Positions 2,105 through 8,014 of a DNA stretch of 64,000 bases are shown here, piece by piece. The DNA lies in NCBI GenBank assembly GCA_903824675.1, contig CAIJXV010000102.1, positions 1 through 64,000 of the forward strand, read 5' to 3'. Made by a program: the position numbers and the translations under genes. The notes beneath the pieces are model-generated. The model was not told where the DNA came from, made no database searches, and was given only the letters and a program-made list of their open reading frames with translations. This DNA comes from an uncultured bacterium (GTDB lineage: Bacteria; Verrucomicrobiota; Kiritimatiellia; CAIKKV01; CAIJXV01). Numbering within the stretch: position 1 is the first letter of the stretch; every line of letters starts with the position of its first letter.

Positions 2105-2410
2105 TCAGGATGCGAGATCGCGCAGGATCAGGTCGCGCACCTTCTGGCCGCACAGCACCACCCTGCAGGTGCCACCGCCGGGGTTGATGCTGCCGCCGGT
2201 GAAGTGCAATCCGCGATAGCGCGGGCTGCGTTTCGGCGCCTGGAGGGCGTTGTTGCGAAAACGCGCGGCCGCCACGCCGTAGATGTCCCCGCGAGTCGAG
2301 TAATATATCCGCTCGATGTCGTCGGGCGTAAGGAAATCCTCAACCAAGATGTGGCGCCGCAGGTCGCGCAGGCCAGCAGAAATAAGAGGCGCAAAAACAG
2401 GTGTAATGCG
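2105..2410 (-). pseudogene. C-terminal remnant of a CrtI-type carotenoid desaturase/FAD oxidoreductase
   Basis: The open frame between in-frame stops (2413-2411 and 2107-2105) encodes about 101 residues with no ATG start. The sequence matches the C-terminal signature of the phytoene desaturase/CrtISO family: a short helix (GLRDLRRHILVEDFLTP), then STRGDIYGVAAARF, then ALQAPKRSPRYRGL, and finally FTGGSINPGGGTCRVVLCGQ, the FAD-binding P-G-G-G loop of this family. About 400 N-terminal residues, including the dinucleotide fold, are missing. The 5' end is replaced by the upstream region of the SOUL gene on the other strand. I conclude this is a truncated gene relic. Confidence 0.75.
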
Positions 2411-2459
2411 TTATAGTCTTGTCCTTATAGCTTTGAAAACATCTTTAAGAGGAGTCACT

Positions 2460-3092
2460 GTGAAGCATCTCACCGCATTACCCGTTTTGATGAGGTCGGT
2501 CGGTTTGATATTTGGAATGATGGGAGGAGTTGCTATGGCCGTCGAAGAAGCCGCCTACACCGTTGAGAAAACAGATGGAAATTTCGAGATCCGACTTTAC
2601 GCGCCACAAGTGGTTGCAGAAGTCGTGGTGGATGGGACCATGGAGGATGCCGGGAACCAGGCGTTTCGTCCACTTTTCAAGTACATCTCGGGTGCCAATC
2701 GCACTCAAGGCAAGATCGCCATGACGGCACCCGTGGCGCAACAAGCGGACGGTCAGAAGATCGCCATGACCGCTCCGGTTGGACAGGTGGCACTCAGTAA
2801 TCGGTGGTCCGTCTCGTTCATGATGCCCGCCCATTCCACGTTGGAAACACTTCCCGTGCCTACGGATGAGAACGTACGCCTGCGTTCCGTCCCCGCCCGA
2901 CGGATGGCCGTGGTGCGATATTCAGGCACCTGGAGCCAGTCGCGGTATGAGCGCAATCTGGCCCGATTACGGGAATGGATGAAGGCGAAGGGGATATCCG
3001 CCGCAGGGGATCCGGTCTGGGCTCGATACAATCCGCCCTTTACGCCGTGGTTTTTGCGGCGAAACGAGATTCTTGTGCCTGTGAAGCCCTGA
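2460..3092 (+). CDS. SOUL/HBP heme-binding family protein, exported
   Basis: A 210-residue protein. The GTG start at 2460 is preceded by the strong ribosome-binding sequence AAGAGGAG at 2446-2453. Residues 1-28 form a Sec signal peptide ending near VAMA. The mature part starts with the canonical SOUL opening (EEAAYTVEKTDGNFEIRLYA). It contains two I-A-M-T-A-P-V repeats around residues 82-110, the family signature, and ends with ARYNPPFTPWFLRRNEI, also conserved. SOUL proteins bind heme or other tetrapyrroles in animals and plants; bacterial roles are poorly known. The protein would act in the periplasm or outside. It sits divergent to the desaturase relic and stands alone. Confidence 0.9.
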   Translation: MKHLTALPVLMRSVGLIFGMMGGVAMAVEEAAYTVEKTDGNFEIRLYAPQVVAEVVVDGTMEDAGNQAFRPLFKYISGANRTQGKIAMTAPVAQQADGQKIAMTAPVGQVALSNRWSVSFMMPAHSTLETLPVPTDENVRLRSVPARRMAVVRYSGTWSQSRYERNLARLREWMKAKGISAAGDPVWARYNPPFTPWFLRRNEILVPVKP

Positions 3093-3548: not shown

Positions 3549-4202
3549 ATGACGAAGCTCAGGATGATTTCGGTAATGTGTTCGATTGTGGCCTTGAGTG
3601 TCGGGTTGGCGCATGAGGTGCGGGCGGCGGATGCCGCGGTCCCGGCGGGCGCTACTCCTGCCATCACCACGCTCGATAATCTGCAGGCGGCTTACCAGGG
3701 CGAATCGAACGCCAAGGCCCGATACGAGGCGTTTGCCGTCAAGGCCGATGAAGAAGGCTACAAATCCGTGGCGGCTTTGTTCCGTGCGGCGGCCCACTCG
3801 GAAGGCATTCATGCCAACAAGCATGGGGCCGCGCTCAAAGAGCTTGGCGTAGCGTCCCAGGCGACGGTCGAGAAGCCGGTCGTGAAATCGACCCAGGACA
3901 ATCTCGAAGCCGCTTTGGGCGGTGAAACCGCAGAGAAAACGTCGATGTATCCCGCCTTCATCAAGCAGGCCGAAGCCGATAAAAATCTGGGCGCAGCCCG
4001 CTCCTTCAAGGGGGCCATGGCCTCCGAGGCGGGACATGTTCTGCTGTTCAAAGAGGCCTTGGGGAATTTGAATGAGTGGAAAGCAGCGGGCCAAGAGTTC
4101 ATCGTTTGTCAGATCTGTGGGTACACGGCTAAAAATACCGCCACGCTGCAGAAATGTCCGGTTTGCGCGGCTCCCCGCTTAAAATTTGATATTTTCAAAT
4201 AA
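3549..4202 (+). CDS. Exported rubrerythrin
   Basis: A 217-residue rubrerythrin with an N-terminal Sec-type signal peptide (hydrophobic 6-20, probable cleavage near VRA-ADA at 26), which is unusual for this normally cytoplasmic family. The ferritin-like di-iron domain (about 42-178) carries the expected ligands E52, E60, E85 with H88, E126, and E160 with H163. A rubredoxin-like FeS4 domain follows, with C187-x2-C190 and C203-x2-C206. Rubrerythrins reduce hydrogen peroxide with electrons passed through the rubredoxin site. The export signal implies peroxide detoxification outside the cytoplasmic membrane. The next gene, 11 bases downstream, is a membrane flavocytochrome, a plausible electron source. 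Confidence 0.9.
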   Translation: MTKLRMISVMCSIVALSVGLAHEVRAADAAVPAGATPAITTLDNLQAAYQGESNAKARYEAFAVKADEEGYKSVAALFRAAAHSEGIHANKHGAALKELGVASQATVEKPVVKSTQDNLEAALGGETAEKTSMYPAFIKQAEADKNLGAARSFKGAMASEAGHVLLFKEALGNLNEWKAAGQEFIVCQICGYTAKNTATLQKCPVCAAPRLKFDIFK

Positions 4203-4213
4203 ATGGTTGTTGA

Positions 4214-5554
4214 ATGAAGAAAGCCGCCTGCCTGCTTTTCCTCGGATGCCAAATTCTGGTTATCTTAGGATTCTGGGGATGGAACCATGTGTACCACCCC
4301 ATGGGTAATCAACTCACCGGCGACCGGATTGGCCAGTTGTTGGCCTACGGTCGCCTGGCTGGGTTGCTCGCGGCTTTCGCGATTCTGTTGCAATTGATCC
4401 TGATCGGACGGGGGCGTTGGATCGGGCGGACCTTCGGTCTCGATCGTCTGACTCATTTACACCACGGGGTGGGTTTTGCCCTCGTCAGTCTTCTCCTGGC
4501 CCACCCGATTTTGCTCACGTTTGGACATGCGCTTCAGGCCGATGTCAGCCCTTGGGCTCAGTTCATCGACTTCTGTCGTTCCTGGGAAGACGTTTTGGCG
4601 GCGGTCATCGGGCTGGGACTGCTGCTTGGAGCCGTGGCTTTTTCGGTGGCGGTCGTGGTTAAGCGGATCCGATATGAAGTCTGGTATGCGACTCATCTCA
4701 CCCTTTATCTCGCGCTGGCATTGGCTTTCGGACATCAACTTTCGGTCGGAAGCGACTTTACGGATAATCGATGGTTCAGAATCTATTGGATCGCGCTCTA
4801 TGCCGGCGCCTTCGGCAGTCTGATTCTCAATCGCGGCATTCGTCCCCTGTTGGACTTCGTTCGCCATCGTTTTGTGGTGGCGCGCGTGGTCGAAGAAACC
4901 ACTGATGTGACGTCGGTCTATATCGAAGGCCGGAATCTTCCGGTCTTCCCGGTTGAAGCCGGACAGTTCATGACGGTCCGGTTCCTGGCTCCGGGCTTTC
5001 GTTGGGAAGCGCATCCTTTCTCGATGTCGTGCCGCCCGGATGGAAAACACCTCCGTCTGACCATCAAGCAACTGGGCGACTTCACACGGCGCATCCCGAA
5101 ACTCCGGCCCGGCACTCGGGTGTTCATTGACGGACCCCACGGAATCTTTACGGCCCGGCATAATGCCTCGAACAAGCTTCTCCTGATTGCCGGGGGAATC
5201 GGCATAACGCCCATCCGTGCGTTGGCCGAAGAATTTGTCGTGGAAGGGCGCGAGGTCATCCTGCTGTATGGCAACCGGAATAAATCCGCGGTGGTATTCG
5301 AACAAGAATTGGAAACCCTGGTGGGCTCTTCCGCCGGCCGCTTGCGGGTGGTACACGTGATGAGCGATGACCCGGCTTGGATCGGAGAACGGGGACGGAT
5401 TGATGCGGAACGGTTGGCCCGGCTTGTGCCCGATGTCCTTCTTCGTGAAGTTTATCTGTGTGGACCGCCCCTCATGATGAAGTCCGTCCGGTCCGCTCTG
5501 GCCCGTCTGGGGGTGTCGCGTCGCCGCCTGCATGATGAGCGGTTCGCGCTTTGA
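4214..5554 (+). CDS. Ferric reductase-like transmembrane flavocytochrome with ferredoxin reductase module
   Basis: A 446-residue membrane oxidoreductase. Residues 1-205 hold about six transmembrane helices of the ferric-reductase-like (NOX/FRE) type. Two bis-histidine pairs with 13-residue spacing, H84/H97 and H161/H174, are the expected ligands for two stacked b hemes. The cytoplasmic half (about 215-446) is an FNR-type module: the FAD motif HPFS at 267-270, the nucleotide-binding GGIGITPI at 327-334, and a C-terminal LCGPPLMM. Such proteins move electrons from NAD(P)H through FAD and heme to the outer face. The 11-base gap from the exported rubrerythrin indicates co-transcription, so periplasmic rubrerythrin may be the acceptor. 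Ferric iron reduction is the alternative role. Confidence 0.85.
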   Translation: MKKAACLLFLGCQILVILGFWGWNHVYHPMGNQLTGDRIGQLLAYGRLAGLLAAFAILLQLILIGRGRWIGRTFGLDRLTHLHHGVGFALVSLLLAHPILLTFGHALQADVSPWAQFIDFCRSWEDVLAAVIGLGLLLGAVAFSVAVVVKRIRYEVWYATHLTLYLALALAFGHQLSVGSDFTDNRWFRIYWIALYAGAFGSLILNRGIRPLLDFVRHRFVVARVVEETTDVTSVYIEGRNLPVFPVEAGQFMTVRFLAPGFRWEAHPFSMSCRPDGKHLRLTIKQLGDFTRRIPKLRPGTRVFIDGPHGIFTARHNASNKLLLIAGGIGITPIRALAEEFVVEGREVILLYGNRNKSAVVFEQELETLVGSSAGRLRVVHVMSDDPAWIGERGRIDAERLARLVPDVLLREVYLCGPPLMMKSVRSALARLGVSRRRLHDERFAL

Positions 5555-5660: not shown

Positions 5661-6521
5661 ATGCATGAGATCGTTTCGAAAGAAATTCTAACAGATGACG
5701 TTTACCGTCTGCGGGTCCGCGCACCCCTGATCGCGGAAGAACGCCGACCCGGCCAGTTTGTTATCGTTCAATTGGAAGAAGAATACGGAGAACGGATTCC
5801 CCTGACCATTGCCGATGCCGATTCTCGGGAGGGAACGATCACTCTGATTTTTCAAGCCGTCGGGAAAACCACTCACCAGTTGGGCGATTTGAAGGTGGGT
5901 GAATCCATCCAAAGTATCCTGGGGCCGCTCGGGAAACCCACCCATATTGAGAAATTCGGGACCGTGGTTTGTGTCGGCGGCGGGATTGGAACCGCCCCCC
6001 TGCACCCGATTGTCCAAGGCATGAAGGCCGCCGGTAACCGGTTGATTGTCATTCTCGGCGCCCGGACTCAAAAACTGATTATCCTGGAGCGCGAAATGCG
6101 CGCCTTGGCCGATGAATTCATCCTGTGCACCGATGACGGCTCCGCGGGGCGCAAAGGGTTGGTGACGGATCCGCTCAAGGAGATTTGCGGGCGGACGCCG
6201 AAGCCCGATCTGGCGGTCGCCATCGGTCCGCCGATCATGATGAAATTCTGTGCCGAGGCCACGCGGCCCTTTGGCGTGCCGACCGTGGTTTCGTTGAACA
6301 CCATTATGGTGGATGGCACAGGAATGTGTGGCGGATGCCGGGTGACCGTCGGTAAAAAGACACAGTTTGTTTGCGTGGACGGGCCGGAATTTGACGGTCA
6401 CCAGGTGGACTTCGACAATATGATGAAACGGTTGAAGGCCTATAAATCCCATGAGGATGAGGCCCATCATAAATGCCATATGGAGACGCAGGCGGACCTG
6501 CTGAAGGAGGGACGGGCATGA
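5661..6521 (+). CDS. nfnA: NADH-dependent reduced ferredoxin:NADP+ oxidoreductase, small (FNR-like) subunit NfnA
   Basis: A 286-residue FNR-fold iron-sulfur flavoprotein, also annotated as the sulfide dehydrogenase beta subunit. The FAD motif is RIPLTI (45-50) and the pyridine nucleotide motif is GGGIGTAP (106-113). Near the C-terminus, M-V-D-G-T-G-M-C-G-G-C binds a [2Fe-2S] cluster through C223, C226 and C238, with D218 as the likely fourth ligand. The family's NfnA cluster is known for an aspartate ligand. NfnAB couples NADH and reduced ferredoxin to NADP+ reduction by flavin-based electron bifurcation, a mark of anaerobic metabolism. The gene's ATGA stop/start overlap with nfnB indicates translational coupling. 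It has its own promoter and a GAGGGAGAG ribosome-binding site. Confidence 0.9.
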   Translation: MHEIVSKEILTDDVYRLRVRAPLIAEERRPGQFVIVQLEEEYGERIPLTIADADSREGTITLIFQAVGKTTHQLGDLKVGESIQSILGPLGKPTHIEKFGTVVCVGGGIGTAPLHPIVQGMKAAGNRLIVILGARTQKLIILEREMRALADEFILCTDDGSAGRKGLVTDPLKEICGRTPKPDLAVAIGPPIMMKFCAEATRPFGVPTVVSLNTIMVDGTGMCGGCRVTVGKKTQFVCVDGPEFDGHQVDFDNMMKRLKAYKSHEDEAHHKCHMETQADLLKEGRA

Positions 6522-8014
6522 GCCATCTCTCTTCCCCGAACTTGCGCCAGCAGGCGATCGATCTGTTGAAAGATCTGGACCCCCGGCAGGCGACCTTGAA
6601 AGCGAAGGACCGGATCCGGATTCCCGCCCAGGATATGCCGACCCAGGATCCGGCCATCCGCCGGCGGAACATCCAGGAGGTTGCCGAAGGCTATTTTCCT
6701 GAACAGGCCCGGGTTGAGGCGATGCGCTGTCTGCAGTGTCGGAATGCGCCCTGTGTTGAGGGCTGTCCGGTGCGGATCGATATTCCCGGGTTCATCCGGG
6801 CGATTGCCGAAAATAATTTTGCCGGGGCGGTTGAAATCATTCGTCGAAACAGCCTGCTCCCGGCCGTTTGCGGACGGGTCTGCCCCCAGGAAACCCAGTG
6901 CCAGGCGGAATGTACCGTCGGTAAATCGCTGAAAGATATCAACCAGGCGGTGATGATCGGCCGGTTGGAGCGGTTTGTGGCCGATTGGGAGCGGGAACAA
7001 CATGGCGTTCGCCTGCCGCCCATCAAGCCGGATACCGGTCGGAAGGTGGCCGTGATTGGGTCCGGTCCGGCGAGTATCACCGTGGCCGCCGATGTCCGCC
7101 GGGAAGGCCATGCGGTGACGGTTTTCGAAGCCTTTCACCGGCCCGGTGGGGTGTTGCTCTACGGGATTCCGGAATTCCGTCTGCCCAAAAAGATCGTGGA
7201 GATGGAGATCAATGCCTTGAAGACGATGGGGGTTGAGATCCGGACTAATTTCGTAGTGGGTCGGACGCGCAAACTGATGGATTTGATGGTCAAAGATGGA
7301 TATGATGCGGTTTTTGTCGGGACGGGAGCCGGTTTGCCAAAATTTATGAATATTGAAGGGGAGAACCTGGTCGGGGTCTTTTCGGCCAACGAATATTTGA
7401 CCCGTGCCAATCTGATGCGTGCCTATGCGGTGGGGCAGGCTGACACCCCGATTTTTCGCGGGCGGCGAGTGGCTGTTTTGGGCGGAGGCAATGTGGCGAT
7501 GGATTCGGCCCGGACAGCGGTCCGCTTGGGTGCGGAAGAAGTCCATCTGATTTATCGCCGGACCGAGGTGGAGATGCCGGCCCGGGTGGAAGAGGTGGCT
7601 CATGCCAAAGAGGAAGGGGTCATCTTCCATTTTCTGGAAAATGCCCAGCGGATCCTGGGGAATGATTATGGGGTGGTGACCTCCATCGAATGTTTGCGAT
7701 ATGAGTTGGGTGCGCCGGATGAGTCCGGGCGTCGCCGTCCGGTTGAGCTTAAGGGGAGTGAGTTTATTCTGCCCATGGATGCTGTGATCGTCGCGATCGG
7801 CAATGAATCCAATCCGCTGATCCGGCAGACGACCGACGGATTGAAGACCAATAAATGGGGCAATATCGTGGTCGATGATACCGGCAAGACGTCGATCGAC
7901 CGGGTTTATGCCGGTGGGGATATCGTGCTGGGCGCTGCGACGGTTATTTTGGCGATGGGCGAGGGCCGTCGTGCCGCGGCCAGCATCAATGCCCAACTGG
8001 CGGCGAGTCCGTGA
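6518..8014 (+). CDS. nfnB: NfnB / GltD-like large subunit (annotated widely as NADPH-dependent glutamate synthase)
   Basis: A 498-residue homologue of the glutamate synthase small subunit and of NfnB. The N-terminal ferredoxin-like region has two four-cysteine sets for [4Fe-4S] clusters: C71, C74, C79, C83 and C118, C122, C128, C132. A FAD-binding GSGPAS follows near residue 176, and a second dinucleotide fold (VLGGGNVAMDSA) near 320. The ATG at 6518 overlaps the stop of nfnA by four bases. NfnB is the bifurcating-flavin subunit that reduces NADP+. The direct pairing with nfnA and the absence of a gltB large subunit here favour NfnB over glutamate synthase. A longer start at 6473 would overlap nfnA by 49 bases and is not preferred. 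Confidence 0.9.
   Translation: MSHLSSPNLRQQAIDLLKDLDPRQATLKAKDRIRIPAQDMPTQDPAIRRRNIQEVAEGYFPEQARVEAMRCLQCRNAPCVEGCPVRIDIPGFIRAIAENNFAGAVEIIRRNSLLPAVCGRVCPQETQCQAECTVGKSLKDINQAVMIGRLERFVADWEREQHGVRLPPIKPDTGRKVAVIGSGPASITVAADVRREGHAVTVFEAFHRPGGVLLYGIPEFRLPKKIVEMEINALKTMGVEIRTNFVVGRTRKLMDLMVKDGYDAVFVGTGAGLPKFMNIEGENLVGVFSANEYLTRANLMRAYAVGQADTPIFRGRRVAVLGGGNVAMDSARTAVRLGAEEVHLIYRRTEVEMPARVEEVAHAKEEGVIFHFLENAQRILGNDYGVVTSIECLRYELGAPDESGRRRPVELKGSEFILPMDAVIVAIGNESNPLIRQTTDGLKTNKWGNIVVDDTGKTSIDRVYAGGDIVLGAATVILAMGEGRRAAASINAQLAASP

Follow-up and report, generated by a model that had tools for sequence, protein, structure and literature searches.

What does a NOX-type flavocytochrome do beside a rubrerythrin that appears to be exported? 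The question is raised by two genes at positions 3549 to 5554 of the 64,000-nucleotide stretch analyzed here (the window), which comprises positions 1 to 64,000 of contig CAIJXV010000102.1 from an uncultured bacterium of the Kiritimatiellia (Verrucomicrobiota). We suggest, as a reading somewhat likelier to be right than wrong, that the gene products together form an NAD(P)H:peroxide reductase working outside the cytoplasm; its wiring would be that of MsrQ-MsrP, except that the donor is of the NOX type, similar to the human NADPH oxidases. Within this proposal, the coupling of the flavocytochrome and the rubrerythrin is well supported by sequence comparison across genomes, and we infer that peroxide is the oxidant. 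The genes and their parts are as follows.

3549 to 4202, + strand: exported-type rubrerythrin, 217 residues, matching PF02915 and PF21349, ligands intact; nearest solved structure nigerythrin (1yuz/1yux)
3549 to 3626, + strand: putative Sec-type signal peptide, approximately residues 1-26, with a cleavage-like site between VRA and AD (from hydropathy, charge and motif)
3669 to 4052, + strand: di-iron ferritin-like domain, residues 41-168 (PF02915 match at residues 43-170; ligands E52, E85, H88, E126, E129, E160, H163)
4098 to 4199, + strand: C-terminal rubredoxin-like domain with C187, C190, C203 and C206 (PF21349 at residues 186-213)
4214 to 5554, + strand: NOX-type flavocytochrome, 446 residues, the proposed trans-membrane electron donor (PF01794/PF08022/PF00175; fold match SpNOX 8qt6)
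4214 to 4867, + strand: six-helix heme b domain, residues 1-218, inner heme H83/H161 and outer heme H97/H174
4286 to 4321, + strand: outer A-loop HVYHPMGNQLTG, residues 25-36, a candidate docking surface, kept in the coupled members
4868 to 5551, + strand: cytoplasmic FAD/NAD(P)H (FNR-type) domain (PF08022 at residues 229-296, PF00175 at residues 324-426; positive-inside topology)

A preliminary description of the locus had placed a rubrerythrin with a Sec-like signal peptide and full metal sites eleven bases ahead of the flavocytochrome, and the open reading frames are exactly where it put them, on the same strand with a stop-to-start spacing of 11 bp; GGAGG stands immediately 5' of the rubrerythrin ATG. 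Both rubrerythrin domains are matched past the cut-offs (PF02915, E 2.4e-22; RUBY_RBDX PF21349, E 5.3e-8), and the protein has what defines a classical two-domain rubrerythrin, a ferritin-like di-iron domain with Glu/His ligands and a C-terminal rubredoxin FeS4 domain. All nine of the di-iron and second-shell positions checked (E52, Y59, E85, H88, E126, E129, Y134, E160, H163) and all four rubredoxin cysteines are kept, so the full sites described earlier are indeed there. Against the NCBIfam equivalogs the protein scores 105.5 bits where rubrerythrin (NF045767) requires 200, and 115.9 bits where nigerythrin (NF045783) requires 340; by its sequence, it is a divergent superfamily member that belongs to neither.

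The putative leader reads MTKLRMISVMCSIVALSVGLAHEVRA followed by ADA, with a maximal 11-residue hydropathy of 2.52, two basic residues ahead of the hydrophobic core, and neither an RR pair nor a lipobox, and this portion is disordered in the predicted model of the rubrerythrin. Three intact rubrerythrin paralogs of the same genome, which also holds one broken copy, begin 1-9 residues ahead of the core and lack a leader. The call rests on hydropathy, charge, the cleavage-like motif and this comparison of paralogs; a hydropathy control with 44 cytosolic rows is weak because their sequences were trimmed at the core, and the real contrast lies in the paralog start codons and the genome's own three paralogs. 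These features agree with the Sec-like signal peptide that had been noticed earlier.

The second gene is the only one in the window genome for which we found a PF01794 match. The protein combines this ferric-reductase (FRE) membrane domain with an FAD domain and an NAD-binding domain; the PF01794 match does not tell the acceptor. The heme histidines are spaced as H83-X13-H97 and H161-X12-H174, in keeping with the bacterial NOX sequence filters of Hajjar 2017 (PMC5676040), which call for a pair of histidines 13-15 apart on each of TM3 and TM5; the FAD motif H[PSA]F[TS][LIMV] is present as HPFSM and the NADPH motif as GIGITP. All of these filters are passed by 16/16 full members of the coupled subfamily described below, and two of six distant NOX-like proteins (G190b and G034) fail one motif. 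The four heme histidines are invariant in 24/24 aligned relatives, the distant ones included, and alignment to SpNOX together with the ligands given in PMC11564096 assigns H83/H161 to the inner heme and H97/H174 to the outer heme. An AlphaFold2 model made from 24 sequences combines six membrane helices with an FNR fold (pLDDT 89.2, pTM 0.82), and it aligns to SpNOX 8qt6 over 392/399 residues at 22% identity (VIA-align, Z 34.1, rmsd 2.7). Three SpNOX rows head the structure ranking, and the next row, at Z 27.4, covers the FNR part only. The structure models contain neither heme nor iron. The mean Arg/Lys counts of 18 proteins follow the positive-inside pattern, with 3.9 in loop B, 3.4 in loop D and 4.2 in the FNR linker against 0.3, 1.8 and 0.6 in loops A, C and E, and we therefore assign loops B and D and the FNR linker to the cytoplasmic side and loops A, C and E to the outer side. 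The NOX/FRE-type flavocytochrome with two bis-His pairs and an FNR module thus stands as first described. Its A-loop carries the motif H...PMGNxLTG, which marks the rubrerythrin-coupled subfamily and whose GN is absent in 6/6 distant NOX-like homologues; from this pattern we infer that the loop is a candidate docking surface for the rubrerythrin.

The preliminary description had made its proposal depend on the pair being found in other genomes, and it is. The coupled membrane subfamily occurs in 18 genomes, 16 with a full flavocytochrome and two with an FNR-less form (G172, G317). In fifteen of the 18, an exported-type rubrerythrin lies directly upstream on the same strand, at gaps of 1-188 bp, 14/15 of them within 30 bp (some start codons are nominal). 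In G384 the rubrerythrin is convergent to the membrane gene at 105 bp, and in G231 the pair is split, with both genes at contig ends that share a repeat. Among 58 relatives, three genomes beside the window's have close flavocytochromes (58-63% identity), each directly behind a rubrerythrin. In a phylum sample of 387 genomes, flavocytochrome matches at E≤1e-40 were found in 16, of which 12 are at 59-100% identity and four have only the distant kind at 31-36%, which we excluded from the coupled count. Rubrerythrin matches at E≤1e-44 were found in 11 of the 387 genomes, all inside the 12 with a full coupled flavocytochrome (Fisher p 1.9e-20, with the cut set after seeing the list and kinship ignored). 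Six relatives came from a scan of named genomes, under the titles Lentisphaerae, PVC group or uncultured bacterium, together with one protein matching in the FNR part only. A hydrophobic leader is present in 16/16 paired rubrerythrins with a readable N-terminus, an RR pair in 0/16, and two have lipobox-like cysteines; the leaders differ in sequence and share one architecture. The rubredoxin cysteines are kept in 16/17 paired rubrerythrins, the 17th being frameshifted in its assembly.

Chance adjacency was rejected because the pair recurs across the phylum while the flanks, except among close relatives, are mostly unshared. We also rejected the idea that rubrerythrin pairs with any NOX-like gene, since none of 14 distant NOX-like loci, two of which (L070 and L073) are short contigs, has a rubrerythrin nearby (control 14/14). 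In G690 (L187 6014-9340), a distant NOX-like gene is followed by one whose protein, by eye, carries an RR leader and resembles an FAD-binding protein at its start; this may be another case of a bacterial NOX-type protein feeding an exported oxidoreductase. Outside the phylum, 349 genomes around a betaproteobacterial locus gave seven matches, all at 30-34% identity and without a rubrerythrin nearby, and the best plasmid match has 41% identity in a search of the matches themselves. The widest scan, of 84,980 species, was made with just two short peptide patterns, to which some members known here do not conform, so that restriction of the pair to this phylum is likely and not proven. Two loci, L108 (G262) and L111 (G192), share pair neighbours that by eye resemble cytochrome c assembly proteins of the ResB/CcsA type.

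The phylogeny is consistent with joint inheritance. In a rubrerythrin tree of 65 rows, the 15 paired proteins group in one clade (100/98) with a lipoprotein paralog of G317 that is unpaired and has a long branch, and the nearest rows outside it are exported rubrerythrins without a partner (98/85). The coupled membrane domains likewise form one clade against the distant ones (99/97), with one long branch meeting it. The distances of the two proteins correlate with r 0.69 over 15 pairs and r 0.45 over the 13 full pairs; G013 (contig edge) and G231 (frameshift) were dropped from the rubrerythrin tree and the distance test. Given the clade structure and the correlated distances, export probably arose before the pairing or together with it, and the two genes were probably inherited largely as a unit. 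The unpaired paralog (G317:C13, L158 5209-5871) is a second rubrerythrin of lipoprotein type with Y to S and E to N changes, a very long branch and no adjoining membrane partner.

In the proposed mechanism, cytoplasmic NAD(P)H would give a hydride to the FAD of the flavocytochrome, as expected from its family, and single electrons would cross the membrane as in SpNOX, via the b hemes H83/H161 and then H97/H174, to the outer face. From the outer heme they would pass to the exported rubrerythrin at its rubredoxin centre, as the conserved pairing suggests, and the di-iron site would reduce H2O2, perhaps O2, to water, a reaction known for cytosolic rubrerythrins. NADH and NADPH are both possible donors, and reduction of iron or O2 by the flavocytochrome is possible too. 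The FNR-less forms would act as relays. In G172, a heme b membrane protein without the FNR module (L151 7119-7736) adjoins a probable lipoprotein rubrerythrin with the lipobox LFAGC (6441-7106), and in G317 another (L149 4274-4924) adjoins one with the off-consensus GIGC (3621-4262).

Several points weigh against the proposed peroxide reductase. Adjacency speaks for a shared role and not for direct contact, and the loading of metal into the rubrerythrin after Sec export is presumed and unproven. G245, whose genome is 89% complete, has the flavocytochrome and no rubrerythrin anywhere, and five exported rubrerythrins in the phylum (G208, G198, G083, G175, G188) have no flavocytochrome partner. 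The di-iron positions checked are all kept in 14/16 paired rubrerythrins; that of G009 has lost ligands (E52A, E129A, H163F) and that of G324 has lost five (E85Q, H88L, E126A, E129G, H163Y), each with the four cysteines and the partner kept. Of the complete NAD(P)H-to-peroxide route in the preliminary description, the export signal, the intact sites, the candidate NOX/FRE-type donor and the conserved pairing are supported, but the route cannot be the function of every pair. The full coupled-type flavocytochrome of G245 (G245:C332, L107 354-1691), in a genome without a detectable rubrerythrin, offers a natural test of a solo role. The partnerless exported rubrerythrins sit on L148, L150, L152, L153 and L155, at approximately 7.1-8.2 kb in each.

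The two degenerate rubrerythrins weigh on both sides. Each groups with an intact-site pair, on different branches (support 85/86 and 82/95), and the losses therefore look independent. W177, G181 and F184 are retained in these lineages as well. Judging from the residues lost, the proteins are unlikely to be ordinary rubrerythrin peroxidases. The route from NAD(P)H through FAD and the hemes to the rubredoxin centre is unchanged in both, which argues for direct transfer to the rubredoxin domain and against a radical source with its scavenger, and a further acceptor is possible. The shared core of the pair may therefore be the trans-membrane reduction of an exported rubredoxin centre. The degenerate proteins (L067 10523-11194 in G009; L114 6942-7601 in G324) are possible exported rubredoxin carriers. 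A broader generalization, which we hold tentatively and on balance doubt, is that anaerobes have a family of NOX-type enzymes that makes no oxygen radicals and acts instead as a trans-membrane NAD(P)H:rubredoxin reductase, in a self-sufficient FNR form and as an FNR-less relay, its substrates being rubrerythrins that are exported or lipid-anchored. On this view the rubrerythrin of two lineages has become an exported carrier, like a rubredoxin, that serves another acceptor, and a bacterial NOX-type enzyme would gain a physiological acceptor.

The alternatives differ in how much of the coupling they retain. The flavocytochrome might indeed reduce the rubrerythrin, with the conserved job being to supply electrons to the rubredoxin centre, the rubrerythrin serving as an exported carrier or as an oxidase that scavenges O2, and with peroxide reduction secondary or lost in some lineages. 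This would explain why G009 and G324 keep C187/C190/C203/C206, W177, G181, F184 and the partner after losing di-iron ligands, and rubrerythrins also reduce O2, more slowly, according to PMC12288474. However, a pure carrier has no need for the di-iron ligands that the other 14 retain, and the flank comparison found no third conserved exported gene beside the pairs, so we regard this alternative as unlikely. We consider it distinctly improbable that the flavocytochrome is a true NOX or a ferric reductase making superoxide, H2O2 or Fe(II) outside, with the rubrerythrin cleaning up the product or oxidizing iron without its electrons. Passage of every published NOX filter by the 16 full members, the SpNOX fold and the ferritin-like nature of rubrerythrins would suit it, but a rubrerythrin requires an electron donor and no other is encoded with the pair, lineages without di-iron sites could not scavenge peroxide and yet keep the pair, and the FNR-less partners in G172 and G317 suit a relay better than an oxidase. 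The ferric reductase rate of SpNOX is also described as very low in PMC11564096.

Two further alternatives remove the coupling altogether. That the two genes share an inherited operon and no functional coupling, the exported rubrerythrin serving another donor such as a periplasmic cytochrome, would accommodate the partnerless exported rubrerythrins of the same phylum and the lone partner in G245; it is highly unlikely in view of a pair that persists as the flanks change (close relatives excepted), even in convergent orientation in G384. Finally, the leader might be an artefact of start choice, with a cytoplasmic rubrerythrin reduced by the usual rubredoxin route. The leader call is made from sequence features, but leaders of differing sequence and one architecture recur in all 16 readable paired rubrerythrins, two of them with lipobox-like cysteines, while the paralogs have none, and we consider this explanation almost certainly wrong.

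The proposed peroxide reductase shares parts with several known systems. Rubrerythrin and nigerythrin NAD(P)H peroxidase systems have the same two domains and the same ligands, nigerythrin being the closest solved fold (TM 0.76-0.83), but these known systems are cytoplasmic, whereas the window protein carries a leader and its proposed donor sits in the membrane. DsbD/ScsB-type transporters with envelope peroxiredoxins also use cytoplasmic reductant to drive peroxide removal in the envelope; theirs is a thiol relay, whereas the window pair has heme-flavin and FeS4/di-iron centres. MsrQ-MsrP (YedZ-YedY) is alike in that a ferric-reductase-domain (FRD) membrane protein, its outer heme open, supplies electrons to a repair enzyme that is exported (PMC11031084), a layout shared by the FNR-less partners in G172 and G317. 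The exported partner here is a rubrerythrin and not the molybdopterin protein MsrP, and in 16 genomes the membrane protein has its own FNR module; the pair is therefore not an MsrPQ member, but by analogy it may work like one. SpNOX has the same six helices, two bis-His hemes and cytoplasmic FAD/NADPH domain, and the flavocytochrome of the pair differs from it in the conserved A-loop, a C-loop that the profile alignment shows to be longer by about 19 residues, and the genetic tie to an exported acceptor. According to the respective papers, SpNOX reduces cytochrome c directly without O2 (PMC11564096), its open outer heme is a possible access to acceptors beyond O2 (PMC11031084), and known rubrerythrins take electrons from rubredoxin and its NADH-dependent reductase (PMC12288474). 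The eLife 2024 SpNOX paper (PMC11031084) names MsrQ as the one prokaryotic FRD protein whose physiological function is clearly identified, and it calls the functions of SpNOX and CsNOX unknown. In the literature searched, partly accessible and barely covering subscription journals and preprints, we found no report that links a rubrerythrin to a NOX-type protein or names an exported or periplasmic rubrerythrin. If correct, our proposal would extend the chemistry of rubrerythrins, known from the cytoplasm, to the far side of the inner membrane in anaerobes, and supply the electrons without need for a quinone or a periplasmic cytochrome; the conserved exported partner makes the acceptor question for bacterial NOX directly testable.

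The physiology of the hosts is in line with this setting. Neither cytochrome bd nor COX1 is matched in the window genome, and among ten pair-bearing genomes cytochrome bd was found in 1/10 and COX1 past the cut-off in 0/10; since these matches are nearly absent, the pair-bearing genomes look like those of anaerobes, the usual home of rubrerythrin. The bacteria that carry the pair are relatives of the Lentisphaerae. A promoter scan gave nothing. An NfnAB-like pair at 5661-8014, 106 bp downstream of the flavocytochrome on the same strand, consists of an FNR/DHODB-type subunit and an NADPH-dependent glutamate synthase-type subunit. Its proteins could supply NAD(P)H to the flavocytochrome, but we rejected it as a part of the system because it does not recur beside other pairs in the flank comparison. 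A SOUL heme-binding protein (PF04832, E 6e-50), in which one hydrophobic segment is a possible leader, is encoded ahead of the pair on its strand (2316-3092). Elsewhere in the window, positions 223-777 encode a GIY-YIG domain protein (PF01541, E 1.4e-12).
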